From Antedon mediterranea (taxonomy: Eukaryota > Echinodermata > Crinoidea > Comatulida > Antedonidae): a stretch of 64,000 nucleotides of DNA. Location: positions 22,982,365 to 23,046,364 of the forward strand of contig NC_092678.1 of the NCBI RefSeq assembly GCF_964355755.1, written 5' to 3'. The notes under the pieces were generated by a model. The model was given only the letters and a program-made list of their open reading frames with translations. It searched no databases and had not been told where the DNA came from. Positions 27,957 through 58,437 of the stretch are shown here, piece after piece. The stretch's first letter is position 1. Every line of letters begins with the position of its first letter. Made by a program: the position numbers and the translations under genes.

Positions 27957-28997
27957 ACATAACAGCTACCTACTGACGTCACGTCTTACTTGACATACCA
28001 CTTGCATACGTACGTCACACCTGCAGGGCATGCGCGCATACAGGATGATAATAATGTGTGTGGCAAAATCTTGAAAAGTACAGTTTAATTTCAAATAAAA
28101 TGGTGAATTGACAGAAAACTACCTCCATGATTTGGTGTTTAGTATTGCAGCCTATTGAAATAGTGTATATTTCGTTTAATTCTTTATGCAAAACGTTTCG
28201 AAAAAGACCAGTAATTTTGAGCCGGCCAGTACAACTAGGCCTATGCCTACGTGTACGACTGCTGCTGCTGGTGGACGTGACACGTGGAAAGTCGCGGTTC
28301 ACTCAAATGGTTAAAATTAACATGCTTGTTGTAGCAATTATCATTGTAAGTACATTATTATTATTATTATTACGGCATGGATGGGGGTAGGCCTAGAGTA
28401 GGCTACGGCGAGTTAGCCTAGGCCTAGCCAAGTTTGGTGCAAATGCTATGCTATGTATTCTAATACAAAGGTTGATTTCTAAATTATAAATGTCATTCAG
28501 ACATTACGTTTCCAGGACATTTTGGCCTTTCTGGTGGTCTTTTCTGCCTGCCAACTCCACGCATAAGGCCCAATTTTGGTTATGCCTCACACGCATGGCT
28601 ATTTGGCTAAAAATCAGGAAAAACATTTTGAAATTAACTTGCCTAGATAGTATTTATGTAATTAATTTGACATGGTTGATCCCGTCGTTGATGTGATGTA
28701 GTGCAGGAAAGCTCGTGTCCAAAAATTAAACATAGTGGGCGTATTATTAGTTGTTTTTTGTATTCGATTGGGACTGTTAATCGGCACAGACATGTGATAT
28801 ATAGAAAACACAATTAGGTCAATAAAATGCCATTCATAACTGAATGTTTTTGTACATCATTCAGATATTTGGTTTTCCATGACCTTTTGGTCTTTCTGGG
28901 GATTTTTTTACTTTTCAATGTTTTTTAATAATTGCTGTAGTATAATTTAGTTAGATTAGTTTGTAATGTACATTGATATTTCATTATTAATTCCAGG
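27957..28997. other. Intergenic stretch with a possible promoter and a short duplication
   Basis: Contains a CRE-like tgacgtca near 27974 and a CpG-bearing stretch to 28020. Two similar segments about 350 bases apart (28495-28550 and 28848-28905, cattcaga...cctttctgg) mark an old duplication. Small ORFs on both strands have no recognisable content. Confidence 0.35.
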
Positions 28998-29079
28998 GTC
29001 TTTTTGGAATATAACATGTTTCTCACAAAGACGCAGAACATTCAGCATTTGGATTTAACTCATCCAGAGGATAGCCAGG
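28998..29079 (+). CDS. Possible short + strand exon
   Basis: It has a good acceptor (attaattccag) and donor (cag|gtaaga). From an internal ATG it reads MFLTKTQNIQHLDLTHPEDS, open to the donor. No phase-matched partner exon is found, as the next 2.6 kb is minisatellite, so this may be an orphan exon of a decayed gene. I do not recognise the peptide. Confidence 0.2.
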
Positions 29080-29354
29080 TAAGATATTTCAAAAACTGAA
29101 TGTTAAGCAAGCTTAAACTTAAATAGCAAAAATCAAGAAAGATATTTCTTTTTCATAGCATGGCTATGAAAGGTTAGATACTTTTTTTTATTCTACGGCA
29201 TCCCATACCAAAATAAAAGCGTGTTCAGCAAAGAGTTTTTCTGTCAACCTCCTTCTGTTCTCGGTACTTTTGCCAGATATAGTGAGAACAATAACTGGGC
29301 TCAGAAAGCAAACTTTGTTGTAAAAGGTTCACTTAGTTGTAAACTAAACTTTTG

Positions 29355-31665
29355 GTAGAATCGAGACCATGTGTAGTTCGTCGTCTTAGTGAGATCTGTT
29401 GCATGCGTATTAGTTTTTTTGTCTTCTAAACTTTTTTTTGTAGAATCGAGACCATGTGTAGTTCATCGTCTTAGTGAGATCTGTTGCATGCGTATTAGTT
29501 TTTTTGTCTTCTTAACTTTTTTTGTAGAATCGAGACCATGTGTAGTTCATCGTCTTAGTGAGATCTGTTGCATAGCGTATTAGTTTTTTTGTCTTCTAAA
29601 CTTTTTTTTGGTAGAATCGAGACCATGTGTAGTTCATCGTCTTAGTGAGATCTGTTGCATAGCGTATTAGTTTTTTTGTCTTCTGAACTTTTTTTTGGTA
29701 GAATCGAGACCATGTGTAGTTCATCGTCTTAGTGAGATCTGTTGCATAGCGTATTAGTTTCTTTGTCTTTTAAACTTTTTTTTGTAGAATCGAGACCATG
29801 TGTAGTTCATCGTCTTAGTGAGATCTGTTGCATGCGTATTAGTTTTTTTGTCTTCTAAACTTTTTTTTGTAGAATCGAGACCATGTGTAGTTCATCGTCT
29901 TAGTGAGATCTGTTGCATAGCGTATTAGTTTTTTTGTCTTCTAAACTTTTTTTTGGTAGAATCGAGACCATGTGTAGTTCATCGTCTTAGTGAGATCTGT
30001 TGCATAGCGTATTAGTTTTTTTGTCTTCTAAACTTTTTTTTGGTAGAATCGAGACCATGTGTAGTTCATCGTCTTAGTGAGATCTGTTGCATAGCGTATT
30101 AGTTTTTTTGTCTTCTAAACTTTTTTTTGGTAGAATCGAGACCATGTTTAGTTCATCGTCTTAGTGAGATCTGTTGCATAGCATATTAGTTTTTTTGTCT
30201 TCTAAACTTTTTTTTGTAGAATCGAGACCATGTGTAGTTCATCGTCTTAGTGAGATCTGTTGCATGCGTATTAGTTTCTTTGTCTTCTAAACTTTTTTTT
30301 GGTAGAATCGAGACCATGTGTAGTTCATCGTCTTAGTGAGATCTGTTGCATGCGTATTAGTTTCTTTGTCTTCTAAACTTTTTTTGGTAGAATCGAGACC
30401 ATGTGTAGTTCATCGTCTTAGTGAGATCTGTTGCATAGCGTATTAGTTTTTTTGTCTTCTAAACTTTTTTTTGGTAGAATCGAGACCATGTTTAGTTCAT
30501 CGTCTTAGTGAGATCTGTTGCATGCGTATTAGTTTCTTTGTCTTCTAAACTTTTTTTTGGTAGAATCGAGACCATGTTTAGTTCATCGTCTTAGTGAGAT
30601 CTGTTGCATGCATATTAGTTTTTTTGTCTTCTAAACTTTTTTTTGTAGAATCGAGACCATGTGTAGTTCATCGTCTTAGTGAGATCTGTTGCATGCGTAT
30701 TAGTTTCTTTGTCTTCTAAACTTTTTTTAGGTAGAATCGAGACCATGTTTAGTTCATCGTCTTAGTGAGATCTGTTGCATGCGTATTAGTTTTTTTGTCT
30801 TCTACACTTTTTTTGGTAGAATCGAGACCATGTGTAGTTCATCGTCTTAGTGAGATCTGTTGCATAGCGTATTAGTTTTTTTGTCTTCTAAACTTTTTTT
30901 TGGTAGAATCGAGACCATGTGTAGTTCATCGTCTTAGTGAGATCTGTTGCATGCGTATTAGTTTCTTTGTCTTTTAAACTTTTTTTGGTAGAATCGAGAC
31001 CATGTGTAGTTCATCGTCTTAGTGAGATCTGTTGCATAGCGTATTAGTTTCTTTGTCTTCTAAACTTTTTTTTGTAGAATCGAGACCATGTGTAGTTCAT
31101 CGTCTTAGTGAGATCTGTTGCATAGCGTATTAGTTTCTTTGTCTTCTAAACTTTTTTTTGTAGAATCGAGACCATGTGTAGTTCATCGTCTTAGTGAGAT
31201 CTGTTGCATAGCGTATTAGTTTCTTTGTCTTCTAAACTTTTTTTTGGTAGAATCGAGACCATGTGTAGTTCATCGTCTTAGTGAGATCTGTTGCATAGCG
31301 TATTAGTTTCTTTGTCTTTTAAACTTTTTTTTGTAGAATCGAGACCATGTGTAGTTCATCGTCTTAGTGAGATCTGTTGCATAGCGTATTAGTTTCTTTG
31401 TCTTCTAAACTTTTTTTTGTAGAATCGAGACCATGTGTAGTTCATCGTCTTAGTGAGATCTGTTGCATAGCGTATTAGTTTCTTTGTCTTCTAAACTTTT
31501 TTTGGTAGAATCGAGACCATGTGTAGTTCATCGTCTTAGTGAGATCTGTTGCATAGCGTATTAGTTTCTTTGTCTTTTAAACTTTTTTTGGTAGAATCGA
31601 GACCATGTGTAGTTCATCGTCTTAGTGAGATCTGTTGCATAGCGTATTAGTTTCTTTGTCTTCTA
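29355..31665. repeat. 86-bp minisatellite, 27 copies
   Basis: The word gaatcgagaccatg recurs 27 times between 29357 and 31593, a mean spacing of 86.0 bases. Units differ in a few places (gcatgcg or gcatagcg, tttttttg or tttctttg, length of a T-run), and variants are interspersed. There is no coding signal, although unit 3' parts (ttttgtcttctaaac, T-run) resemble a polypyrimidine tract. Confidence 0.9.
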
Positions 31666-32894
31666 TGGGTACATGACCTTTTGTTTGTATGTATTTCTTT
31701 TTTTCAGTTGGCGTACAGTATCATCTGATAAATTCTAATTAAGTGTATCTGTCCATACCATTTGAGGTTGAATATACAGTAATGTACATATTTCATTGGG
31801 CACAACTGAAAGACAGTTTTGGCTAGACTTCTCAGTCGACGGTTGGACTCCTTTGCAGCCACTGCATGGTTCATTCTGTGAACAAACTTCTGATATCAAA
31901 CTTCTATCAACTTTTGATATTTGAAACTGTTTGGAAGCCAGGCGTGTCATTTTGCGGTACCCAATCCGAAGCTGAAATAGGGTTACTTACTCAATGATTG
32001 TATAGAATAGGGATGTTCATTATTAATACGCGATACTACACATTTGGCTAATTAAAAAGGGGAAAAATTGTCTTGTGATTTACAAATACAGTATGTTGTG
32101 GTGCTGTATTCTTCGTGAGAAATTGGTTGTAAAAGGTTCACTGTAACATCTCAGACTCCGAATTTTTTACTAGAATAGTCGTCTTAGTTAACTACCATAC
32201 CATACCATACCATATAAGTTTCCCCAACTAACTGAGTACTGACAGGTACAGTATTAAAACCTTCTTTGCTAGTACTGTAATGTTTTTATTTATTTCATAT
32301 TTTCGTAACATTATTTAGTGGGATAACTGATCTGTAGTTTCACTGTATCCCTGTCCCCTTGGGTAGACCTCGTCATGCCACTACATGGTTCATTTCTTTA
32401 CTATTACTACTTTGAAACCACATGTTTAAAAAAATGAATGCATTTAGTAAAAGTTTACTTTTATCAACTGTGTAAATAATATTTGTACTTAATTATTTGC
32501 TACTGTAAAAACTGTTTAAAAATGAGAGGTAATGTTGAAAGAGATAAAGCAATGCTGAAACTTTTGTGTAGCTACACTTTGTTAGCCAATGATGCGACAG
32601 AATAGGGATATTCATTATTACTACTGTATGTGATACTACACATTTGAAATTTGTATTATTCAGTGTAGGTACTCATTGATATTGTTCAGTCCTGGTTTTG
32701 TGATTGCCCCACCTGTAAAGATCTGTGTTATACTGTATGTAGTAACAATTGTTTAAATCATTTTCTAGATTCTACCGATGTTGTTTGAAAATTTGTATTA
32801 TTCAGTCCTGTTTTTGTAATTGGTCATGTGAAAGCAGTAACCTGTAAAGGTCGGTGGTATACTGTATGTAGTAATAATTACTTTGTTAAATCAT

Positions 32895-33065
32895 TTTTCA
32901 GTTTCTACTGATGTCGATGACTCCATTTACGTATTTAAGTAATGTGAAGGATTGGACGTGTAGCTCAGAAATTTGTGCGTTGGCTTTTACTAAAGAGTAC
33001 CAAAGAAGCAAGCTAGATTTATGATATTGAAGAATTGGTGGATCATTTGAAGATGAACACCGAAA
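32895..33065 (+). pseudogene. Decayed copy of giant receptor exon 50, copy 1
   Basis: Matches exon 50 from about 25950 to 26160 with deletions: tctactgatgtcgatgac, a shortened middle, ggacgtgtagctcag, taccaaagaagcaagct and gatattgaagaattggtgga. In-frame stops and gaps make it non-coding. Confidence 0.7.
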
Positions 33066-33177
33066 TAATTATTTAGTGTAGGTAGTCATTGATGTTGTTC
33101 AGTCCTGGTTTTGTGATTGCCCCACCTGTAAAGATCTGTGTTGTACTGTATGTAGTAACAATTGTTTAAATCATTTT

Positions 33178-33355
33178 CTAGATTCTACCGATGTTGATGA
33201 CTGCATTAACGTCTTTGGGTAAGGTGAAGGAATGGACGTGTGGCTCAGAAATGTTGGCGTTGCCTCCTACTAAACAGTACCAAAGAAGCAAGCTAGATTT
33301 ATGATATTGAAGATTGTGTGGATCATTTGAAGATGATGAACACCGAAATAATTAT
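33178..33355 (+). pseudogene. Decayed copy of giant receptor exon 50, copy 2
   Basis: Same match as copy 1: tctaccgatgttgatgactg, ggacgtgtggctcagaa, cctcctactaaacag, taccaaagaagcaagct, gatgatgaacacc. It carries the same deletions as copies 1 and 3, so the copies arose from one damaged ancestor. Confidence 0.72.
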
Positions 33356-33867
33356 TTAGTGTTGGTAGTCATGGATATTGTTCACTCCTGTTTTTTTTTT
33401 TAAACATTACCTGTTACTACTTTGAAACCACATGTTTAAAAAAATGAATGCATTAGTAAAAGTTCACTTTATCAACTGTGTAAATAATATTTGTACTTAA
33501 TTATTTGCTACTGTAAAAACTGTTTAAAAATGAGAGGTAATGTTGAAAGAGATAAAGCAATGCTGAAACTGAAAGACCCTTTTGTGTAGCTACACTTTGT
33601 TAGCGGATGGTTGGACTTCTTTTGATATTTGAACCTGTTTAAATTCCCAATATTGGCACTTAATTATTTGCTACTGTATGCCAGGCGTGTGTCATTCAGC
33701 AGTACTCAATCAAAAGCTGAATTAGGGTTATTACTTATCAATGATGCGACAGAATAGGGATATTCATTATTACTATGTGATACTACACATTTAAAATTTG
33801 CCAAGTTGAAAAGGGGAAAAATTGTCTGGTGTGGTGTAGTGTTTCATACTAGGTTCATTATAGTGTA

Positions 33868-33910
33868 CCAAAAAAGCAAGGTAGAAGAAGATGAACACCG
33901 AAATAATTAT
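33868..33910 (+). pseudogene. Decayed copy of giant receptor exon 50, short fragment
   Basis: Only gtgtaccaaaaaagcaaggt and gaagaagatgaacacc remain of the block seen in the longer copies. Confidence 0.45.
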
Positions 33911-34019
33911 TTAGTGTAGGTACTCATTGATATTGTTCACTCCTGTTTTTGTAATTGCCCTACGTGAAATGAATAAAACAAGAATTCCTGTACGTAGTAA
34001 TAATTGTTAAATAATTTTT

Positions 34020-34192
34020 CAGATTCTACCGATGTTGATGACTGCATTAACGTGTTTGGGTGAGGTGAGGGAATGGACGTGTAGCTCAGAAATGTTTGCG
34101 TTGTCTCCTACTAAAAAGTACCAAAGAAGCAAGCTAGATTTATGATATTGAAGAATGTGTGGATCATTTGAAGAAGATGAACACCGAAATAA
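34020..34192 (+). pseudogene. Decayed copy of giant receptor exon 50, copy 3
   Basis: attctaccgatgttgatgac, then ggacgtgtagctcagaa, ctcctactaaaaag, taccaaagaagcaagct and gatattgaagaatgtgtgga. Preceded by tttttcag, which looks like an acceptor but corresponds to exon-internal sequence in the parent. Confidence 0.7.
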
Positions 34193-34627
34193 TTATTTAG
34201 TGTAGTGTTCATTGATTTTTTAGTCCTGTTGTTGTAATTGCCCTACATGAAGTGAATAAAACAAGAATTCCAACATATATAAACTTGATTTAGACACGAG
34301 ACTGATGTGCAGTACAACTCGTTCAATCAATATTGATTGTTTTTACACAAGTTCGTGATACTGTATTACCAAAAAAAAATCAACACCATATAAATACGAC
34401 AGAAAGAAACAAAATTACAGCAGAATCCCCCCGAGAAGTACCATACCGGTACTTATCGTGTAAACGGAAACCCTTATCGAAGTGTATAATTTATGGGGCT
34501 TCTACTGTAATACATAATAAATCTTTTTACCTTAAAATAAATTAGTGAGAAAACACACATTTTATATAGTATTTAGCCATTTTAAAAGTTGGATGTACAC
34601 CATCGTAGATTACCATACCATGATGTT

Positions 34628-35376
34628 TTACAATGCATTTTTCAGATACGTTTTAAACAACTTAACTGAATTTGGAAGGGTGTCAACATTGAGACTATTC
34701 CATATAATTGCTCCACGATAAGACAGACTTTGTTTTTTAAAATCGGTTTTTGGCTTCGGGATGAATAGATGTGTATCACTGTGCCTTAGATTATAATTTA
34801 TATCATTGTATGTAAATACATTATTTAGGTAAGGTGGGGCATTATCTGTCGAAACCTTATATATAACCATACAACATTCATATCTACCTTGATATAATAA
34901 AGGTGACCAATAAATTTGTCCCATGTTAGACCACACACGATTCGAGGTGTTCTGTTTTGGATAGTTTGAACTCTTTTCATTAGAGTTTGACTACTATTTA
35001 AAATAATAGCTACATCGTCTGAGCATATCCAATCCATTTAGAGCGTTACCTCGAATGTATTCATGATAAATGTTGGTCTGTTATGATACCGAGATGTTTG
35101 CAATATCGAACGCGTGGTACAGCATCGTTATTCAATTCAAGGAACATTTATTCACGTCCAAAAGACAAAAAGTAGCAAAAACAAAATGGCAAGTGATAAA
35201 ACAAGAAAATGGACGAAGGCAAATCCCAAAAAGATTACAATCTTGTGACGGGATTGCCTTTACAAAATATTTGTTTTTTTTTAGCCAATCGTCGGTTTGT
35301 AGAAGTTCTTCATTTATATATATTTCATTTTCATTTTTTGAAGAACAATAAATTATAGTATCGTCAGCATACATTT
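34628..35376 (-). pseudogene. Broken LINE (non-LTR) reverse transcriptase, C-terminal part
   Basis: Read on the minus strand from 35374: YADDTIIYCSS, which holds the catalytic Y-A-D-D motif, then LLQTDDWLKKN. An unrelated block follows (about 35130-35250), then MKRVQTIQNRTPRIVCG and, in another frame, NAPPYLNN, NLRHSDTHLF and SYRGAIIWNSLN. This order is standard for the C-terminus of CR1/RTE-X-like ORF2. Frameshifts and the inserted block make it non-functional. Its upstream part is missing: the 25-bp satellite begins about 15 bases beyond the YADD motif. Confidence 0.8.
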
Positions 35377-35391
35377 ATATATTGGATGTGT

Positions 35392-38300
35392 GTATAGTAA
35401 ATAATTTTTCTTGTACTTATAGTAAATAATTTTTCTTGTACTTATAGTAAATAATTTTTCTTGTACTTATAGTAAATAATTTTTCTTGTACTTATAGTAA
35501 ATAATTTTTCTTGTACTTATAGTAAATAATTTTTCTTGTACTTATAGTAAATAATTTTTCTTGTACTTATAGTAAATAATTTTTCTTGTACTTATAGTAA
35601 ATAATTTTTCTTGTACTTATAGTAAATAATTTTTCTTGTACTTATAGTAAATAATTTTTCTTGTACTTATAGTAAATAATTTTTCTTGTACTTATAGTAA
35701 ATAATTTTTCTTGTACTTATAGTAAATAATTTTTCTTGTACTTATAGTAAATAATTTTTCTTGTACTTATAGTAAATAATTTTTCTTGTACTTATAGTAA
35801 ATAATTTTTCTTGTACTTATAGTAAATAATTTTTCTTGTACTTATAGTAAATAATTTTTCTTGTACTTATAGTAAATAATTTTTCTTGTACTTATAGTAA
35901 ATAATTTTTCTTGTACTTATAGTAAATAATTTTTCTTGTACTTATAGTAAATAATTTTTCTTGTACTTATAGTAAATAATTTTTCTTGTACTTATAGTAA
36001 ATAATTTTTCTTGTACTTATAGTAAATAATTTTTCTTGTACTTATAGTAAATAATTTTTCTTGTACTTATAGTAAATAATTTTTCTTGTACTTATAGTAA
36101 ATAATTTTTCTTGTACTTATAGTAAATAATTTTTCTTGTACTTATAGTAAATAATTTTTCTTGTACTTATAGTAAATAATTTTTCTTGTACTTATAGTAA
36201 ATAATTTTTCTTGTACTTATAGTAAATAATTTTTCTTGTACTTATAGTAAATAATTTTTCTTGTACTTATAGTAAATAATTTTTCTTGTACTTATAGTAA
36301 ATAATTTTTCTTGTACTTATAGTAAATAATTTTTCTTGTACTTATAGTAAATAATTTTTCTTGTACTTATAGTAAATAATTTTTCTTGTACTTATAGTAA
36401 ATAATTTTTCTTGTACTTATAGTAAATAATTTTTCTTGTACTTATAGTAAATAATTTTTCTTGTACTTATAGTAAATAATTTTTCTTGTACTTATAGTAA
36501 ATAATTTTTCTTGTACTTATAGTAAATAATTTTTCTTGTACTTATAGTAAATAATTTTTCTTGTACTTATAGTAAATAATTTTTCTTGTACTTATAGTAA
36601 ATAATTTTTCTTGTACTTATAGTAAATAATTTTTCTTGTACTTATAGTAAATAATTTTTCTTGTACTTATAGTAAATAATTTTTCTTGTACTTATAGTAA
36701 ATAATTTTTCTTGTACTTATAGTAAATAATTTTTCTTGTACTTATAGTAAATAATTTTTCTTGTACTTATAGTAAATAATTTTTCTTGTACTTATAGTAA
36801 ATAATTTTTCTTGTACTTATAGTAAATAATTTTTCTTGTACTTATAGTAAATAATTTTTCTTGTACTTATAGTAAATAATTTTTCTTGTACTTATAGTAA
36901 ATAATTTTTCTTGTACTTATAGTAAATAATTTTTCTTGTACTTATAGTAAATAATTTTTCTTGTACTTATAGTAAATAATTTTTCTTGTACTTATAGTAA
37001 ATAATTTTTCTTGTACTTATAGTAAATAATTTTTCTTGTACTTATAGTAAATAATTTTTCTTGTACTTATAGTAAATAATTTTTCTTGTACTTATAGTAA
37101 ATAATTTTTCTTGTACTTATAGTAAATAATTTTTCTTGTACTTATAGTAAATAATTTTTCTTGTACTTATAGTAAATAATTTTTCTTGTACTTATAGTAA
37201 ATAATTTTTCTTGTACTTATAGTAAATAATTTTTCTTGTACTTATAGTAAATAATTTTTCTTGTACTTATAGTAAATAATTTTTCTTGTACTTATAGTAA
37301 ATAATTTTTCTTGTACTTATAGTAAATAATTTTTCTTGTACTTATAGTAAATAATTTTTCTTGTACTTATAGTAAATAATTTTTCTTGTACTTATAGTAA
37401 ATAATTTTTCTTGTACTTATAGTAAATAATTTTTCTTGTACTTATAGTAAATAATTTTTCTTGTACTTATAGTAAATAATTTTTCTTGTACTTATAGTAA
37501 ATAATTTTTCTTGTACTTATAGTAAATAATTTTTCTTGTACTTATAGTAAATAATTTTTCTTGTACTTATAGTAAATAATTTTTCTTGTACTTATAGTAA
37601 ATAATTTTTCTTGTACTTATAGTAAATAATTTTTCTTGTACTTATAGTAAATAATTTTTCTTGTACTTATAGTAAATAATTTTTCTTGTACTTATAGTAA
37701 ATAATTTTTCTTGTACTTATAGTAAATAATTTTTCTTGTACTTATAGTAAATAATTTTTCTTGTACTTATAGTAAATAATTTTTCTTGTACTTATAGTAA
37801 ATAATTTTTCTTGTACTTATAGTAAATAATTTTTCTTGTACTTATAGTAAATAATTTTTCTTGTACTTATAGTAAATAATTTTTCTTGTACTTATAGTAA
37901 ATAATTTTTCTTGTACTTATAGTAAATAATTTTTCTTGTACTTATAGTAAATAATTTTTCTTGTACTTATAGTAAATAATTTTTCTTGTACTTATAGTAA
38001 ATAATTTTTCTTGTACTTATAGTAAATAATTTTTCTTGTACTTATAGTAAATAATTTTTCTTGTACTTATAGTAAATAATTTTTCTTGTACTTATAGTAA
38101 ATAATTTTTCTTGTACTTATAGTAAATAATTTTTCTTGTACTTATAGTAAATAATTTTTCTTGTACTTATAGTAAATAATTTTTCTTGTACTTATAGTAA
38201 ATAATTTTTCTTGTACTTATAGTAAATAATTTTTCTTGTACTTATAGTAAATAATTTTTCTTGTACTTATAGTAAATAATTTTTCTTGTACTTATAGTAA

Positions 38301-39654
38301 ATAATTTTTCTTGTACTTATAGTAAATAATTTTTCTTGTACTTATAGTAAATAATTTTTCTTGTACTTATAGTAAATAATTTTTCTTGTACTTATAGTAA
38401 ATAATTTTTCTTGTACTTATAGTAAATAATTTTTCTTGTACTTATAGTAAATAATTTTTCTTGTACTTATAGTAAATAATTTTTCTTGTACTTATAGTAA
38501 ATAATTTTTCTTGTACTTATAGTAAATAATTTTTCTTGTACTTATAGTAAATAATTTTTCTTGTACTTATAGTAAATAATTTTTCTTGTACTTATAGTAA
38601 ATAATTTTTCTTGTACTTATAGTAAATAATTTTTCTTGTACTTATAGTAAATAATTTTTCTTGTACTTATAGTAAATAATTTTTCTTGTACTTATAGTAA
38701 ATAATTTTTCTTGTACTTATAGTAAATAATTTTTCTTGTACTTATAGTAAATAATTTTTCTTGTACTTATAGTAAATAATTTTTCTTGTACTTATAGTAA
38801 ATAATTTTTCTTGTACTTATAGTAAATAATTTTTCTTGTACTTATAGTAAATAATTTTTCTTGTACTTATAGTAAATAATTTTTCTTGTACTTATAGTAA
38901 ATAATTTTTCTTGTACTTATAGTAAATAATTTTTCTTGTACTTATAGTAAATAATTTTTCTTGTACTTATAGTAAATAATTTTTCTTGTACTTATAGTAA
39001 ATAATTTTTCTTGTACTTATAGTAAATAATTTTTCTTGTACTTATAGTAAATAATTTTTCTTGTACTTATAGTAAATAATTTTTCTTGTACTTATAGTAA
39101 ATAATTTTTCTTGTACTTATAGTAAATAATTTTTCTTGTACTTATAGTAAATAATTTTTCTTGTACTTATAGTAAATAATTTTTCTTGTACTTATAGTAA
39201 ATAATTTTTCTTGTACTTATAGTAAATAATTTTTCTTGTACTTATAGTAAATAATTTTTCTTGTACTTATAGTAAATAATTTTTCTTGTACTTATAGTAA
39301 ATAATTTTTCTTGTACTTATAGTAAATAATTTTTCTTGTACTTATAGTAAATAATTTTTCTTGTACTTATAGTAAATAATTTTTCTTGTACTTATAGTAA
39401 ATAATTTTTCTTGTACTTATAGTAAATAATTTTTCTTGTACTTATAGTAAATAATTTTTCTTGTACTTATAGTAAATAATTTTTCTTGTACTTATAGTAA
39501 ATAATTTTTCTTGTACTTATAGTAAATAATTTTTCTTGTACTTATAGTAAATAATTTTTCTTGTACTTATAGTAAATAATTTTTCTTGTACTTATAGTAA
39601 ATAATTTTTCTTGTACTTATAGTAAATAATTTTTCTTGTACTTATAGTAAATAA
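35392..39654. repeat. 25-bp satellite, about 170 identical copies
   Basis: Unit is the core acttatagtaaataa (15) plus spacer tttttcttgt (10). No variant was seen in about 4.2 kb, so the array is either very young, under active homogenisation or partly an assembly construct. Both strands carry stops in the repeat, so it is not coding. Confidence 0.95.
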
Positions 39655-40624
39655 CCCGAGCTTGGTGGCGCTATTACTTATAGTAAATAACCCGAGCTTG
39701 GTGGCGCTATTACTTATAGTAAATAACCCGAGCTTGGTGGCGCTATTACTTATAGTAAATAACCCGAGCTTGGTGGCGCTATTACTTATAGGAAATAACC
39801 CGAGCTTGGTGGCGCTATTACTTATAGGAAATAACCCGAGCTTGGTGGCGCTATTACTTATAGGAAATAACCCGAGCTTGGTGGCGCTATTACTTATAGG
39901 AAATAACCCGAGCTTGGTGGCGCTATTACTTATAGGAAATAACCCGAGCTTGGTGGCGCTATTACTTATAGGAAATAACCCGAGCTTGGTGGCGCTATTA
40001 CTTATAGGAAATAACCCGAGCTTGGTGGCGCTATTACTTACAGGAAATAACCCGAGCTTGGTGGCGCTATTACTTACAGGAAATAACCCGAGCTTGGTGG
40101 CGCTATTACTTACAGGAAATAACCCGAGCTTGGTGGCGCTATTACTTACAGGAAATAACCCGAGCTTGGTGGCGCTATTACTTACAGGAAATAACCCGAG
40201 CTTGGTGGCGCTATTACTTACAGGAAATAACCCGAGCTTGGTGGCGCTATTACTTACAGGAAATAACCCGAGCTTGGTGGCGCTATTACTTACAGGAAAT
40301 AACCCGAGCTTGGTGGCGCTATTACTTACAGGAAATAACCCGAGCTTGGTGGCGCTATTACTTACAGGAAATAACCCGAGCTTGGTGGCGCTATTACTTA
40401 CAGGAAATAACCCGAGCTTGGTGGCGCTATTACTTACAGGAAATAACCCGAGCTTGGTGGCGCTATTACTTACAGGAAATAACCCGAGCTTGGTGGCGCT
40501 ATTACTTACAGGAAATAACCCGAGCTTGGTGGCGCTATTACTTACAGGAAATAACCCGAGCTTGGTGGCGCTATTACTTACAGGAAATAACCCGAGCTTG
40601 GTGGCGCTATTACTTACAGGAAAT
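39655..40624. repeat. 36-bp satellite, 27 copies, sharing its core with the 25-bp array
   Basis: Unit is a 21-bp spacer starting cccgagcttgg and ending ggcgctatt, plus a 15-bp core that is identical to the 25-bp array's core in the first units. Three ordered variants: tatagt next to the 25-bp array (3 full units), tatagg (7), tacagg (to the far end). One + strand frame is open (323 codons, 39662-40633, VALLLTGNNPSL repeats) because 36 is a multiple of three. It is not taken as a gene. Confidence 0.93.
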
Positions 40625-40632
40625 CTGCGCTA

Positions 40633-40890
40633 ATGTCAGTTAGTGCAACAGTTGCTCATGGTCCCAACAACTTCCTATCGGACATACCGGAGCCGTCAAC
40701 ACCACCCACCACAGGTGGCTCTGTCTCATACGGTCCATCCACACTTGACCTGAATAAGTGCAATCAGTATCAAGCACCTACATCTGTCGTTCTTGCTACC
40801 CCACCGGGGTACCAACTATCCATCACCCACTCCAAAGCCATCCAGGGTAGAACATCTACATCCCGGACACCCGGAGTCAAATTGCACTAA
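40633..40890 (+). CDS. Small hypothetical ORF after the 36-bp array
   Basis: 85 codons from ATG 40633, which overlaps the stop of the repeat-encoded ORF (TAATG). The product is Ser/Thr/Pro-rich (EPSTPPTTGGSVSYGP) with no membrane segment or known motif. Base composition is richer in C and G than the flanks. It could be the tail of a retroelement ORF; no match can be named, and chance is possible. Confidence 0.25.
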   Translation: MSVSATVAHGPNNFLSDIPEPSTPPTTGGSVSYGPSTLDLNKCNQYQAPTSVVLATPPGYQLSITHSKAIQGRTSTSRTPGVKLH

Positions 40891-41280
40891 CCAACTATCC
40901 TCAACAACTCAAACTTGCATATACATACTCATATACACCATGACAACAAACAAGTGTCGTCCTGCCACTTTATTTCACACTATCGCCCAACAAAGAAACA
41001 TGCATATTCATGCACACATATTAATACTGCCTACTAACGACGCATAAACTCAACAACCTACTTCCAACAACATTATGCACATACATATATACTTCCATAA
41101 CAATTTACATATTCATTACCCACCTCCTGCCTTTTCATTGGTCTATTATAGTCAACCACTGAGTCCATTGACTCAAATCCCACTGCCTTTTTTACACTAT
41201 TAACCTACGCGCCTCCTGCTTCCTCATTGGCCGCTTAACATGATTCCATCCCTCAATTTCTAATTAACCCAATGATTCTA
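40891..41280. other. C/A-rich spacer
   Basis: Strongly G-poor on the + strand. Contains the first copy of the block that precedes each tRNA-like unit (cctcattggccgc, ccctcaatttctaattaacc). No gene seen. Confidence 0.4.
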
Positions 41281-41290
41281 TTAACTTTCC

Positions 41291-41355
41291 TTGATGACTC
41301 AATGGAGTAAACGTGTGCTTACAGCCCAGAGGGTTGTGGGTTCGAATCCCAAGCC
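41291..41355 (+). repeat. tRNA-like unit 1 of 3
   Basis: gatgactcaatggagtaaac then a perfect box B, gggttcgaatccc. The T arm pairs (tggg/ccca), but a canonical anticodon arm and acceptor stem are not formed. Confidence 0.5.
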
Positions 41356-41574
41356 TACCTCCTTTCTTTTTACTTCTCCACTGTTTTCATACCTCCGCTT
41401 CTACATATTATTCATAGTTACTTGCCTGCCGGTTAATTTACGCCGTATCCACAAATCACCATCATTTCACATAACATATTATAATTACAATACGTACGCG
41501 TCTCTTGCGTTCTCATTGGCCGCCTAAAATTATTCCATCACTCAATTTCTAAATACCCCACTCAGTTTATTGAC

Positions 41575-41650
41575 TTGCCGCGATGACTCAATGTACTAAA
41601 CGTGTGCTTACGGCCTACAGGGTTGTGGGTTCGAATCTCTCCAAAGGTAA
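41575..41650 (+). repeat. tRNA-like unit 2 of 3
   Basis: 76 bases: ends ttgcc / ggtaa can pair; box-B-like gggttcgaatctc. The anticodon region gtaaacgtgtgcttac folds with an eight-base loop, not seven, so a working tRNA is unlikely. Confidence 0.5.
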
Positions 41651-41915
41651 CTTCTTCCTCTTCATTTCTTTTCCACCGCCTGATTTCATACCTCCGCATT
41701 ACGTATTACTCGTAGGTACGCACATGCCTTCTTCTGCATTTATTAACATAATTACGCGCTATCCGCCCTTTCAACATAACACCTTCATATATTCATCAAC
41801 GCCATTACCAATCACAATACGTATAATTATATCCTGTACTCACGTACGCGTCTCGTGCGTTCTAATTGGTCGCTTCCATCCCTCAATTTCTAATTAACCC
41901 AAAGATTCTATTGAC

Positions 41916-41991
41916 TTGCCGCCATGACTCAATGTAGTAAACGTGTGCTTACGGCCTACAGGGTTGTGGGTTCGAATCTCTCCCACGGCAA
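41916..41991 (+). repeat. tRNA-like unit 3 of 3
   Basis: 76 bases: ends ttgccg / cggcaa pair over six bases; box-B-like gggttcgaatctc; a T-run (cttcttttttccccc) follows about 25 bases on. Units repeat every 290-340 bases with their flanks, as a tandem SINE-like array. Confidence 0.5.
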
Positions 41992-42379
41992 CTTCTTTCC
42001 AATTTCCTTTCTTCTTTTTTCCCCCACCACTGTTTCTATACGTCCGCATTACGTATTATTCATAGACTTAAAACAATAAAACTATTAAATACAACATTAC
42101 TGGCGGTGTCCCTTTCTACGAATTTATTACCAGTAACCACAATTATTAATAGTTACCGCCCGGTATCCTCCCTCTGAAACAATCCGCATCATTTCCAAAT
42201 TCAACATCTTACATTCGGAGGAGAACAGCTTATTAGGCTTACTAATCATTCTTGGATAATAACTTCCTTACAGGGACGACACGTGTACAGAAGTTACTTT
42301 CTATGACGCGTTATACTCCCATTGCAACATTCCGCATCATTTCCAACTCAACTATATTTACAAGTCTGTCCACGTTCAA

Positions 42380-43835
42380 CGCAACTTCATACGATTACCC
42401 CGTGCGTGTGGTACGTACGTCACTACGCTTGCGTATATTTTATATGATATATTTCAGCCCCCGATCACATACAACAAAAACTTACAAAGGTCCTACTTCA
42501 ACGCAACTTCATACATTTACCGCTTGCCCGTGCGTGGGGTACGTACGTCACTACGTTCGCGTATATTTCACATAATACATTTTAGCCCCCAATCACATAC
42601 AACAAAAACTTACAAAGGTCCTACTTCAACGCAACTTCATACATTTACCGCTTGCCCGTGCGTGGGGTACGTACGTCACTACGTTCGCGTATATTTCATA
42701 TAATACATTTTAGCTCCCGATCACATACAACAAAAAGTTATAAAGGTCCTACTTCAACGCAACTTCATACATTTACCGCTTGCCCGTGCGTGGGGTACGT
42801 ACGTCACTACGTTCGCGTATATTTCACATAATACATTTTAGCCCCCAATCACATACAACAAAAAGTTATAAAGGTCCTACTTCAACGCAACTTCATACAT
42901 TTACCGCTTGCCCGTGCGTGGGGTACGTACGTCACTACGTTCGCGTATATTTCACATAATACATTTTAGCTCCCGATCACATACAACAAAAAGTTATAAA
43001 GGTCCTACTTCAACGCAACTTCATACATTTACCGCTTGCCCGTGCGTGGGGTACGTACGTCACTACGTTCGCGTATATTTCATATAATACATTTCAGCTC
43101 CCGATCACATACAACAAAAAGTTATAAAGGTCCTACTTCAACGCAACTTCATACATTTACCGCTTGCCCGTGCGTGGGGTACGTACGTCACTACGTTCGC
43201 GTATATTTCATATAATACATTTTAGCCCCCAATCACATACAACAAAAACTTACAAAGGTCCTACTTCAACGCAACTTCATACGATCACCGCTTGCCCGTG
43301 CGTGGGGTACGTACGTCACTACGCTTGCGTATATTTTATATGATATATTTCAGCCCCCGACCACATACAACAAAAACTTACAAAGGTCCTACTTCAACGC
43401 AACTTCATACGATCACCGCTTGCCCGTGCGTGGGGTACGTACGTCACTACGCTTGCGTATATTTTATATGATATATTTCAGCCCCCGATCACATACAACA
43501 AAAAGTAACAAAGGTCCACATTCAACGCAACTTCTTACGATTACCCCGTGCGTGTGGTACGCACGTCACTACGCTTGCGTATATTTTATATGATATATTT
43601 CAGCCCCCGATCACATACAACAAAAACTTACAAAGGTCCTACTTCAACGCAACTTCATACGATCACCGCTTGCCCGTGCGTGGGGTACGTACGTCACTAC
43701 GCTTGCGTATATTTTATATGATATATTTCAGCCCCCGATCACATACAACAAAAAGTTACAAAGGTCCACATTCAACGCAACTTCTTACGATTACCCCGTG
43801 CGTGTGGTACGTACGTCACTACGTTCGCGTATACT
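42380..43835. repeat. 122-128-bp tandem repeat, 12 copies
   Basis: The word gg(g/t)gtacgtacgtc (one copy gtacgcacg) ends at 42412, 42540, 42668, 42796, 42924, 43052, 43180, 43308, 43436, 43558, 43686 and 43808: spacing 128 except two of 122. Each unit has the palindrome acgtacgt and a TATA-like AT stretch. Two subfamilies differ in phase: cgttcgcgtatatttca and cgcttgcgtatattttatat. Confidence 0.92.
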
Positions 43836-44214
43836 TTCTTTGCTACAATGTATCTTTTGCATTAAGTAATATCTATATATCATTACTAACCACTTCAACA
43901 GCACATTTTCTCTTTGCCCACATTGCCAAATGTTCCAGCGTTCCACTTGCAAAGTACACAATATTCCCGTCTGCGTCGACACCCCCCTATTCTCCACACG
44001 CCCATGTGTGCGTACTTCTTCAGGGGCCATTCCAAACACTCTCTCAGACAATCCCGATAGAAGCCCTCCCAACCATCACTTATTAAAACAATTCTCCTCG
44101 GTATCTCTTCACCTACGCAATTCAATTATACATCTTCACGTAACGGTCGTGTCATACATACGTGTTTCCAAACACTACATCCCTTGACTCTAAATTAAAT
44201 CTTCCCATACCTGA

Positions 44215-44335
44215 AGATATCAACGTAGCTGAGTAGTAGTAATTTTGTTTATTTTATTTATTTCATTTATATGTAATTTACTTTCTATGGACCAGAGTTT
44301 CCGAAATAAAATATTGAATGAATGAATATATATTT
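44215..44335 (+). mobile_element. 3' tail of a retrotransposon
   Basis: Ends tggaccagagtttccgaaat, aaaatatt, then (gaat)n. This is a common 3' end for LINEs with short simple-repeat tails. No matching ORF is seen upstream. Confidence 0.5.
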
Positions 44336-45720
44336 CAATTACCGTTGCCTTTCGTCTGCTTCAATATGCTATAACAGGGTCATTAAAAATCATCAATATC
44401 ATTTATTTTCCAATAATGTTACATAACTTTACAGAAAACATCAGTTGTTGACTTACTCATGCTTACAATACAATATTTATTCCCTTACCAAAACATACAT
44501 TTCCAAATACAATCATAATGTGCCACAGTTACATTTCTATTTCTTAAACTTATTTCTCACATTTATTATTCTCTTATTCTCACTATTTACATATCTATCA
44601 TTAGCAAACGATATGTCATGGAAATGTTTCTGGGTTGGTATAAGAAGTTCTTTTACTTCTTCATCTCATCTCTCAAACAGTTCCTATTTATCGTTACCAT
44701 TTAACTTAATGTAAATGTCCATTTGTTGGACTGTTTCAAATAATTGTTAAAGACATATGAATATTACTACATAATTATATTACACACTTATACTACCATT
44801 CTATTCTAACTCATCTCCTATATAATACAATTTACTGTACAGAAACATCAACTTAAGTATTATTATGAATGCCGTATTCTTGTCAGACAGTACAACCTCC
44901 ATAAGGGGACACCTTCGAGACCCAACTAATTCCACCCTGGAAAGTCCAAACAACAAATACACCAAAATGAAAACTAAAGAAATTCAGAAGATTTCAAACT
45001 TACAATGGTATAAATGATTACAATATTATAATTTACTGTCTCCAGATTAGGGGTTTCTCACTGGTGAGCTTGTACTGTATTACGATATAACAGATTCAAC
45101 TCACTTAAAGACAAACAAAACCTGTCACTAATACACAAGAACATACTTCAACCTACTATACAACACCATAACTATCAACATTAATGTTAATATAGACTAT
45201 TGACTGCTACTACCATAGCATCAACGTGAATACAATTTACAAACATTTACTGGACCGGTCTTTCACATGTAAACTCCCTCAACTGTCGCATCAAAACATC
45301 CATTTACAAACACTGAGTGCACTGGTCCGGTCACTCATAAGTCACTATAGGAACTTCTTTAATTTGTTTGTTTATTCTGAGTATATAATGTGCATATACA
45401 CTCATATGCCTTCAACAAAGTATTTTCTACTCTACTATTTACAGTCAAACAAAAGATCCTTCAAACACTATAATTAATATACAATATAACGATCTGTGCT
45501 GGGGAATTGGGGTGGCTGCTGACAATACAAACCGGACACTATTTACACACACAGGCCGTGGAGAATCGATGCCTCATTCTTTACCAGGGCTGGAACTTTT
45601 CTTGATACGTTTTTCTGTACAACTTCAAAATTATTCATTCTAAATTCATGGCTTCTGCCCCTTATGTCTTGTGCCTCTACTGACTATAACTACAGACTTG
45701 TAGGTTCATGAATATTGAAA
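44336..45720. other. AT-rich stretch 3' of the minus-strand gene
   Basis: No supported gene. On the minus strand it lies after the stop at 45721, so part is probably 3' UTR; AATAAA (as tttatt) occurs near 45370. Confidence 0.3.
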
Positions 45721-46995
45721 CTATTCAATTTTTACTTCATCCTGGTTCACTGGCTTCATAAAATCAAATAAATTCTTCCACATGTCTTTATGCTTTATTA
45801 GAACTTCTAAAATTTTTTTGCTGAGCTACAGAAATAATTTCAACATATTATTATTAATATTATTTATTATTTTAATCCTAATATTATGGGAAAAGCTGGC
45901 TTCTGCTGGAGTCATTAACTTCTTTTTTGCATTACAACCCCGCCATTGAAACCTACAGAACAATCTATTCCAATCTATGTTCCTATATGTCTGTTCAACT
46001 ATGTGACTTTTCTTCGCCTGTCACATTTCAAGGACCTATAACTTTATGTTTAGTACATACAAAATACTTACTGCTTCAGCCAATAACATCAATATGTTAA
46101 TTTCTTCGTCAATCCTGCAAATGCAAATGCAATACCAATTATTATATATATTATTATTATTTCGGAATTATTCATGACTTCCACTGTTTCACACACCTCC
46201 CTATTTCAACATAACATAATGCCAGGGAATCTTTATACCGACAGATCAAACTACATTTGTTGCTATCCCAAACACAGAGCCACCTTCTCATTTCACTTCT
46301 TATGCATAGATATTACTACACTACTAAGGCGTCCATAAAACACAATTTATCACTTTCATAACTTGGACTGCATTAATGTGTTTAACCATTACAACATCAG
46401 ATCTTCTCCAACGTGTGTTTTTGCACAATGAACATACAAAACTATGTTTCAAGTTACAAATACTATAGGACACTCATACTTCAATCATACTACACAATCG
46501 TCAATCAACTTGATCGATCACTAAACTATAAACCACTGTACTATTTAATTATATTACAAGCAGCTCTCAACTTCTTACCCCTCATGAACATCTTCTTGAT
46601 TGTCAATACGAAGTTTAAGCTGCCAAAACAAAAACAAACAGATTTCTACTTATTATTCTTCCTTGCAATTGTCTTAATGTTAAGTTCGGTTACCTGCATA
46701 AATAAATACTTACTTGTTCAAACTTCTGTTGATATGCTCTTAAAGCATAATTTGACTTTTTTCTTTCAATTTCTATCTTTTTTGAGGTCATTAACCCTTT
46801 CTGCCATTCGTCCACTTCATTGTTTCTTTCTATTGATAGCTCGAGATATATCTTCACTCTTTCCATATTTGATACTCTCATTTTGGGATTCATATTTTCT
46901 ACAAAACATAAAAAGACAATGTTCACATCTAAAACTGATACACAGTATCTTAAAGCCATCTTCACTTCATCTGGTCCTACAACTGTTCTTAATTC
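45721..46995 (-). CDS. 3' end of an unrecognised coiled-coil protein gene, four exons
   Basis: Exons in transcript order: 46995-46714, 46619-46579, 46114-46072, 45825-45721, ending in TAG. Phases agree (0, 0 to 2, 2 to 0, 0) and donors are gtaagt, gtaaga and gtaagt. Acceptors are strong for exons 2-4 (tttgttttggcag, gcatttgcag, ttatttctgtag) and weaker for the first (ttttacaatag). The 157 visible residues start ELRTVVGPDEVKMALRYCVS. They then become highly charged and helical (MERVKIYLELSIERNNEVDE, IEIERKKSNYALRAYQQ) and end WKNLFDFMKPVNQDEVKIE. This looks like the C-terminal coiled coil of a larger protein, family unknown. Upstream exons are not resolved; see the weaker candidates at 47445-47513, 52563-53336 and 62005-62088. 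Confidence 0.65.
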
Positions 46996-47285
46996 CTATT
47001 GTAAAATGGAGAGTTTATAGTTAGTAAGTCTGGTAGATTAAGAATGATGCGTATTAAAACAACTCGATTTAGGAATTCCTTTCTACCTTTAATAAAAACA
47101 AACCTAGATAAGATAATTATAATTTTCATTGTTGAAAAAAATTTTGGAATTTTGCAAGTTTTGTAAATTTTTTCTACTAATTGAGTGTATTCTTTTTCGC
47201 AACAAGAAGACAAATTTCATACTGTACTATTTTGGTTTGTATGACAATAAAAGATCTGTATCTGTATCTGTATATAGACTCATAC
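46996..47285 (+). mobile_element. LINE/SINE 3' end with (gatctgtatct)n tail
   Basis: Ends tttgtatgacaataaaagat then ctgtatctgtatctgtat, a typical 3' tail of invertebrate non-LTR elements on the + strand. The preceding 200 bases are A/T-rich without a good ORF. Confidence 0.4.
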
Positions 47286-47444
47286 AATGTTTACACTCAC
47301 TTTATTGTTATGTTTCCCCAAATTAGTGCCTCTCATATACATATACCTTCATTTACACATGGGTTAATTTATATTAATTTAATTTTGCATTAAAGCAAGG
47401 CTATAAAAAGTGTTTTTGTTTTGTTACCCACTGCTGTCTCTTAC

Positions 47445-47513
47445 TAAACATTTCAATATGCCAATTGCCCAATCAAAAATCAGTCTAGGGGGTGGAGACT
47501 GATCGTTTCCAAA
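47445..47513 (-). CDS. Possible upstream exon of the minus-strand gene
   Basis: 69 bases, phase 0 at both ends, acceptor tttacctgtag and donor tta|gtaaga. Reads FGNDQSPPPRLIFDWAIGIL then KCL, and would join in frame to the exon starting ELRTVV. The CCAAT-like words inside are a warning that this could be regulatory or chance. Confidence 0.3.
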
Positions 47514-48129
47514 CTACAGGTAAACCTTTGGATCTCTCTGCGTCCTACATATTGCTCTTCCCGTATAAACACGGTATTTGATTAAGCAACAGAGGCAACA
47601 AGTTCACGTTTGTTTTATTTCTCTTTCTCTTATTGGGTATTTTCAGATTTTAATTCGACGACCACCCACTCATTTCACAGGTTAGTTTGGAGCACAAAAT
47701 GCAGCCTATATACAACTTTATTTCTCATATCGATGCCTTCCATGCAGCAGAAACACACTCTTCTACATTGTACATAAAATACTCATTGTTATTTTATGCT
47801 TATTATATAGCTCCTCTTAAATACTGATAATATCTCACTATTCAGTGAACCATTATTTTGTACTTCCCTAACCACTAACAGTTGCATAGATGTTTTATAT
47901 CCTTTAAACACAGTACAATCTTTGTATACACAGGTTATGAATTACTTCCCTCGTGGGTGGGTAAATATAATACTAAGCATATAAGGAAGTAAGCACATTC
48001 TACCTTCCTTCTGGTACTACTAGTACGACTTGTCTCAAATCTTATTCAAAGGACATAATACTGGATATAGATTTGTGTTATTTTAATTTCGTAAGTATTC
48101 CATTAATGATTATTATTTCATTTTTCGGC

Positions 48130-57319: not shown

Positions 57320-58437
57320 TCGATGCTAAGTGGCTACTTATACACTTAAGTGGCTACTTATACACAGAAGTGGCTACTTATACACGTAGGGCCTGTTTCT
57401 ATTGAAAAATAAAAAAAGAACGGTTTTTTGGAAACCGGTTTCGGCTGTTGTTTATAAATAAAGATCGCGTTGCAGCTCAATTTTTACTCCAATAAAACCG
57501 GTTCCGTCCATGTGCGTTCGTTATGAATGACGTCATTATATACACCACAATGCAGTTCGTTAGGCGGAAGCGCGATTTGATCGTGGTCATGTTTACTTTT
57601 TTTCGCATAGCGCGATCCCCAAGAAATAGCATCCATTTCATCATAGAAGGGGAATTATTACCTGAAACGTTATTGTGGTCCTTGGTTAAAGTATAGGTAC
57701 GTCGCACCCTCTGATATTGTCAAGTTGAACTCGTCTATTTTTCACACGCTTTACAATATTCTTAAAAACATGTAGGCCTATACGTGAGTCTTTCTTCCGA
57801 CTCCCGACAAGTCCCCTCATCTTCTTTCCTTCACATATTTTTTACGAACCTCGTAATGGCATCGGTCAACATTTTTTAGTTAAATAAAATACTCACTATC
57901 TAGAGAAATAAAAATGACTTAGGCCTAGGTCCTATCGCGCGAGTTTGACTGCGAGATGACCGCAATCATCCCAGTGCAGCAGACTGCAGAGTTCAGTTTT
58001 TGGGGTCAAATTGAGACCGCGATTGTGTTGCAGCTAAAAATTGCTCCGCGGAAACCGGTTTCAGAACGGTTCTTTGCGATCGAGACCGCAATCAATTGGG
58101 GTTTTTGAAACCGTTTTTAAGATCGGTTCTTTTTTGTGGTTTTTTGTGGGGACCCATTTCTGCTGGCAAGAAAAAACGGTTCTTGAAAAGAACGGTATTC
58201 AAAACCGTATTCTCTGCTCTATAGAAACAGGCCCTTAAGTGGCTACTTATACACTTAAGTGGCTACTTATACACTTAAGTGGCTACTTATACACTTAAGT
58301 GGCTACTTATACACTTAAGTGGCTACTTATACACTTAAGTGGCTACTTATACACTTAAGTGGCTACTTATACACTTAAGTGGCTACTTATACACTTAAGT
58401 GGCTACTTATACACTTAAGTGGCTACTTATACACAGA
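57320..58437. repeat. 20-bp minisatellite split by a transposon
   Basis: Unit ttaagtggctacttatacac: about three units at 57327-57386 and about eleven at 58214-58437. The intervening 0.83 kb is the element described separately. Confidence 0.88.
57387..58213. mobile_element. Non-autonomous DNA transposon, PIF/Harbinger-like
   Basis: Perfect ends gggcctgtttctat / atagaaacaggccc. The insertion lies exactly within the 20-bp minisatellite, with gta on the left and tta on the right, which suggests a TTA target duplication as used by PIF/Harbinger (inference). The interior has many aaccggtttc-type palindromes and higher CpG content than the flanks. No transposase ORF. Confidence 0.75.

Follow-up and report, generated by a model that had tools for sequence, protein, structure and literature searches.

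Concerted evolution by unequal crossing-over is the textbook model of tandem arrays that are homogenised in blocks, and the CENP-B-box type is the model for a modular satellite bound by a protein. In autosomal human minisatellites of the MS32 type, mutation is polar and growth is biased to one edge of the array. The closest known organisation to the array reported below is that of the human Y-chromosomal minisatellite MSY1, whose locus name is DYF155S1. MSY1 is described as having a 25-bp unit of 75% A+T, its variant units being grouped blockwise, as in (1)15 (3)42 (4)20 (PMC2599865). Length mutants recovered from sperm lie within 3 repeats of their progenitor, 'boundary switch' mutations occur between adjacent blocks, and length changes reportedly favour neither gain nor loss, their apparent polarity falling short of significance (PMC2599865). 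According to the same study, MSY1 units of other lengths were never observed, the unit is predicted to form a hairpin, and autosomal human minisatellites are GC-rich, many of them with interspersed variants (PMC2599865).

The array analysed here lies in a stretch of 64,000 nucleotides of Antedon mediterranea DNA (C9:22982365-23046364, referred to as the window in the rest of the text). Like MSY1, it has a 25-bp unit and variants in blocks. It differs from MSY1 in its two unit lengths and in the absence of a hairpin signal on folding, where MSY1 has a single length and a predicted hairpin, and in the edge-biased growth that we propose for it, MSY1 being without gain or loss bias and without significant polarity; growth at one edge is the feature that would liken it to the MS32-type minisatellites. 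MSY1 is haploid, a possible further difference. Autosomal minisatellites are GC-rich with interspersed variants, whereas the blocks of the window array are pure. Arrays under concerted evolution resemble it in being homogeneous within block and locus with fixed differences between loci; in contrast, the window array and its duplicate described below keep two unit lengths in separate, same-order domains at two loci. A literature search at the level of titles and the starts of abstracts met no description of a two-length array of this sort, which does not prove that none exists.

Results

The composite array spans positions 35393 to 40624 of the window, which is without any N, and consists of 25-mers followed by 36-mers, joined directly at 39654/39655. 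The first-pass annotation had given its limits as 35392 and 40624; the right end stands, but base 35392 misfits the unit and the array starts one base later. The 25-bp part (35393-39654, plus strand; unit ACTTATAGTAAATAA+TTTTTCTTGT) begins mid-core with TATAGTAAATAA and comprises 170.5 copies according to TRF, with 169 identical consecutive units counted from 35415. It contains no variants, comparison at lag 25 yielding 0 mismatches over 4,262 bp. The core at 39640-39654 (plus strand) is common to the last 25-mer and the first 36-mer, and the 21-bp spacer of the 36-mer (CCCGAGCTTGGTGGCGCTATT) follows it immediately, which bears out the direct switch at 39655 that had been claimed. Twenty-seven full 36-mers then fill 39640-40611, followed by 13 bases of a further core up to 40624, and comparison at lag 36 yielded 2 mismatches over 985 bp. 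The exact 15-bp core occurs 173 times in the window, compared to 0 times in 100 shuffles.

The 27 36-mers vary at two sites only, both of them in the core, while the 21-bp spacer is invariant. The three core types form three contiguous runs that contain, from the junction rightwards, 4, 7 and 16 units. Block C (39640-39783, plus strand) comprises 4 36-mers whose core ACTTATAGT is the exact core of the 25-mers; block B (39784-40035, plus strand) comprises 7 with the core ACTTATAGG, which carries T9G; and block A (40036-40624, plus strand) comprises 16 with the core ACTTACAGG, which carries T9G and T6C, plus the 13-bp terminal partial core, in which both changes are present. The statement that both units contain the same core holds for 4 of the 27 36-mers and fails for the 7 with T9G and the 16 with T9G and T6C.

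A DNA search of the genome (354 Mb in 18 contigs) with the right flank of the array (40612-41300) returned one long match other than the query itself, C9:23077928-23078453, which is 96% identical and lies 54.9 kb downstream, as well as three shorter matches (61-98 bp) of the far end of the query, located in the window or adjoining the long match. The common right flank occupies 40635-41154 of the window (plus strand; 505 of 526 aligned columns, 96%). Immediately adjoining this match on its left is a second array (L008) made of four 25-mers, seven 37-mers and a terminal core, each part being 100% by TRF. Its 25-type unit is the core plus TTTTCCTTGT, the first of the four having an incomplete core, and its 37-mer is the core plus ACGGAGCTTGGTGGCGCCTTGT; the terminal core is half-decayed (ACTTATAGTAACAA), and all cores of the duplicate carry T6 and T9. 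At both loci the 25-type units are on the left and the 36/37-type units on the right, with about 170 versus 4 25-mers and 27 versus 7 longer units in this one assembly. A further, decayed 36-type unit suspected by eye left of the duplicate's array (CCCGAG) was rejected as within chance, 1165 of 5000 random draws scoring as well.

Collinear homology between the two loci extends on both sides of the array, from about 28905 to about 49200; its blocks are 70-96% identical and alternate with unmatched stretches. The left part of this segmental duplication (28905-34276, plus strand) consists of several such blocks, the best of which are 85-93% identical, and the copy begins near C9:23073495. A diverged segmental duplication thus contains the composite array twice, with its parts in one order. 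The alignment with the duplicate is poor over the 10 bp that follow the array on the right (40625-40634), and the right array edge may not be strictly one site in the two copies.

The stretch between the left part and the array (34277-35374, minus strand) has no match in the duplicate (E up to 1e-8, alignment rows of at least 50 bp), nor was any match to it found between the duplicate's left block and its array. The right part of this stretch is a piece of a reverse-transcriptase element in antisense orientation that ends at 35374, 18 bp left of the array. Of 32 other matches of the element, 27 stop exactly there, two extend a few bases further and three stop earlier; the end probably reflects 5' truncation. 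The RVT_1 match in the element (E 0.017, frame read by eye) is below the Pfam cut-off, the frame at 34631-34990 has no Pfam match, and a search for a target-site duplication gave 7-8-bp matches only. Inside the reverse-transcriptase stretch sits a dispersed element of about 143 bp (35130-35272, no strand assigned) with at least 39 other copies of 97-99% identity, 40 of 198 candidates, the window's own included, having been scored.

The duplicate bears directly on whether the junction, or the copy number, is an artefact of assembly. A perfect 4.26-kb array is hard to assemble, and its copy number could be misjudged. However, the separate locus 55 kb off repeats this order with a clean junction, each of its two spacers differing in bases from its counterpart in the window, and single-base block variants were resolved within the window. 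Since the same order recurs beside the same right flank, an assembly join is very unlikely, and we give an artefact of either kind very little weight. The occurrence of the composite at both loci is most simply explained if the switch predates the duplication, and the array switch is probably older than that event. Because both unit types are also found in the duplicated copy, the earlier proposal of spacer replacement in a growing array is not supported as a recent event.

Comparison of the units from the two loci revealed that the 25-mers differ at 1 base in 25, and that the 36-mers of the window are one base shorter than the 37-mers of the duplicate and diverge from them at several positions. 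Both spacers of the duplicate end in CCTTGT; what sets its two types apart is an inner segment, 4 bp long in the 25-mer and 16 bp in the 37-mer, and the stretch common to both unit types is 21 bp in the duplicate and 15 bp in the window. The 21-bp spacer had been called unrelated to that of the 25-mer, which is too strong, given that the last six bases of the duplicate's two spacers are in common.

The same comparison speaks to the suggestion that the core is a protein-binding site under selection, with the spacers as exchangeable modules. The 25-mers and block C agree with the duplicate in all 15 core bases, as a binding site would predict, but 14 bp of the 36-type spacer (GAGCTTGGTGGCGC) are equally conserved between the loci. 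Moreover, the location of both variable 36-mer sites in the core, with none in the spacer, speaks against a core protected by selection, and no motif stands out above the rest of the unit as in a protein-bound modular satellite. Outside the two arrays, the exact core occurs at 2 stray places in the genome, versus 28 matches for a control with the reversed pattern. The evidence is against a protein-binding core, and we consider this explanation highly improbable.

These strays come from genome-wide pattern searches, in which the core gave 185 exact matches: 173 in the window, 10 in the duplicate (counted in its units) and the 2 strays, obtained by subtraction, the first 100 of the 185 having been listed by position. 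The 36-type spacer, allowing up to 3 mismatches, was found in its 27 window copies and at 3 stray places on C1, C2 and C8, compared to 0 for its control. Within 80 bp on each side of these 3 strays and of the listed stray core on C1, neither an array nor the other module adjoins. An 18-bp part of the 37-type spacer gave 71 matches at up to 3 mismatches, compared to 19 for the control; the window accounts for 27 of the 71 and the duplicate for 7, and the other 37 are scattered, each with 3 mismatches. A DNA search with the duplicate's array, by a method that skips very common words, returned 34 matches, all at the two loci. Neither the pattern searches nor the DNA search found a third array, and a genome-wide satellite or library is not supported. 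As far as searched, the units of 25, 36 and 37 bp form arrays at two linked loci only, as expected of a locus-specific minisatellite, whose tandem unit of some 10-100 bp occupies one locus or a few. What had been described as two satellites are, within the reach of these searches, minisatellites of one duplicated locus rather than genome-wide satellites, and a modular satellite system is not supported, given that core and spacers were found in arrays at these two loci only.

Coding capacity and RNA structure were also considered. A unit of 36 bp is divisible by 3, and both strands of the 36-mer array are open between stops (335 and 345 codons, with 211 in a second plus-strand frame). However, 25 and 37 are not multiples of 3, and the duplicate's 37-mer array therefore cannot hold one frame across its units. 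Rfam searches gave no match at gathering scores, and in none of 5 stretches did DNA folding improve on the mean of the shuffles (z 0.27 to 1.62). On the grounds of unit lengths, Rfam and folding, we rejected a coding sequence, structural RNA or hairpin as the explanation, leaving it almost no probability.

Several other features were noted in the two copies. The sign of the GC skew flips at the array in each copy (window 28000-48000; duplicate about C9:23074000-23088000), from about +0.10 to +0.15 on the left (28-35 kb) to -0.24 to -0.35 on the right (40-48 kb) in the window, and from +0.07 to +0.20 to -0.14 to -0.29 in the duplicate; convergent transcription is one option for what lies behind it. 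An 86-bp array of about 27 copies (29350-31665) has no match in the part of the duplicate that was fetched (E up to 1e-3). A 128-bp array of 11.3 copies (42399-43838), for which the duplicate has about one broken copy, is a second case of unequal expansion between the two. At 41239-42027, three places in succession match a single short block of the duplicate (about 110-150 bp), which looks by eye like a tRNA-type SINE; ARAGORN found no tRNA gene in 40600-44000, and short tRNA-box search words also had no match there. Further left in the window, plus-strand exon-like frames between 80 and 26428 with recurring 'VD-[TS]PP' motifs (by eye) may perhaps belong to one large secreted or membrane protein. 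One of these frames contains a calcium-binding EGF domain (PF07645, 27.2 bits, the cut-off being 27), whereas Pfam gave no match for a tail frame of 256 codons. A 24-bp array of 26 copies (8932-9556) is open on both strands, and nearly one 20-bp unit is shared by two short arrays about 850 bp apart (57327-57385 and 58234-58434).

Discussion

Taken together, the description of a composite array with a direct switch is confirmed, and the wording on core, spacer and satellite had to be corrected. Of the interpretation attached to it, one array family with two spacer versions and a direct changeover is supported, and the rest finds no support as stated. We think it probable, taking all its parts jointly, that an old composite whose two unit types were amplified separately, with single-unit growth at the right edge of the 36-mers, accounts for this non-coding, locus-specific and block-structured minisatellite of a known kind, for which no function is needed.

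The 25-mer and the longer unit would be two length variants of one ancestral unit in which an inner segment was replaced (TTTT/TTTTT versus a 16-bp sequence). Both variants would have stood side by side before the duplication to about 55 kb away, and would have been inherited at both loci rather than transferred later. Each type would then have been amplified and homogenised within its own block, presumably because in unequal exchange or replication slippage a unit pairs most readily with others of its type. The core would simply be the segment that has stayed alike in both types, with no binding factor needed.

The window 25-mers would have been amplified to about 170 very recently, from a small number such as the duplicate still has, since 0 variants occur in 4,262 bp. 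The right flanks of window and duplicate differ by 15 substitutions in 520 bp, and a divergence of 0.03 predicts about 64 private changes for 4,262 bp of unhomogenised units, compared to the 0 observed. If rates are equal, the present 25-mers would accordingly trace back to a common ancestor no older than about 5% of the time elapsed since the split of the flanks.

The 36-mers, in turn, would have grown largely by single-unit steps near the right edge, two successive core mutations being carried into the later units. Since all cores of the duplicate carry T6 and T9, the window blocks can be read from C to B to A, that is rightwards, as two successive substitutions. This direction may be affected by its dependence on one outgroup that could itself be homogenised, and pure end growth from the duplicate's state would need the loss of units, block C having 4 units versus 7 in the duplicate.

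To gauge step size, growth was simulated under eight models with 60,000 runs each; we kept runs with exactly two variants, at least 3 copies of each and no rarer variants, and counted ladders towards either edge (counts derived from fractions). Among these two-variant arrays, random single-unit growth produced a ladder in 9 of 301 cases without deletions and 12 of 383 with deletions, and random multi-unit steps in 0 of 234 and 0 of 930. Single-unit growth at the end produced it in 52 of 52 and 18 of 18 cases, and multi-unit growth at the end in 0 of 94 and about 1 of 529. Within the models simulated, these results support single-unit, edge-biased growth.

The main rival, for which the same gradient is expected, places the origin of the ladder at the junction side: the ancestral 36-mer core would have been ACTTACAGG, and exchange with the adjoining 25-mers would have converted the nearest 36-mers stepwise, giving blocks B and C in the window and the whole array in the duplicate. 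The gradient does point to the 25-mers, the cores being fully identical at the junction; block B would follow directly from a breakpoint between core bases 6 and 9; and all 7 of the duplicate's 37-mers have 21 bp in common with the 25-mers. However, conversion requires that every core of the duplicate was converted, the half-decayed terminal core included, where right-edge growth requires two substitutions, and the units of blocks B and C are flanked on both sides by 36-type spacers except at the junction itself. We therefore regard conversion as unlikely, though well ahead of the artefact and binding-site explanations, and favour growth at the right edge.

The array seems to be a genuine yet unremarkable example of a repeat that grows locally, and does not indicate a new kind of element. 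More tentatively, and with somewhat less than even confidence in the combination, the locus may preserve a readable record of growth, in which one edge was extended by one unit at a time and two unit lengths were kept through a duplication in separate domains of the same order, pairing between unlike units being suppressed despite 15-21 bp in common. A direct switch between two repeat lengths can be old and inherited, and neither an assembly join nor a fresh event. With its ordered ladder of mutations and a short sister array 55 kb off, the locus offers a compact natural case for the direction and step size of array growth.
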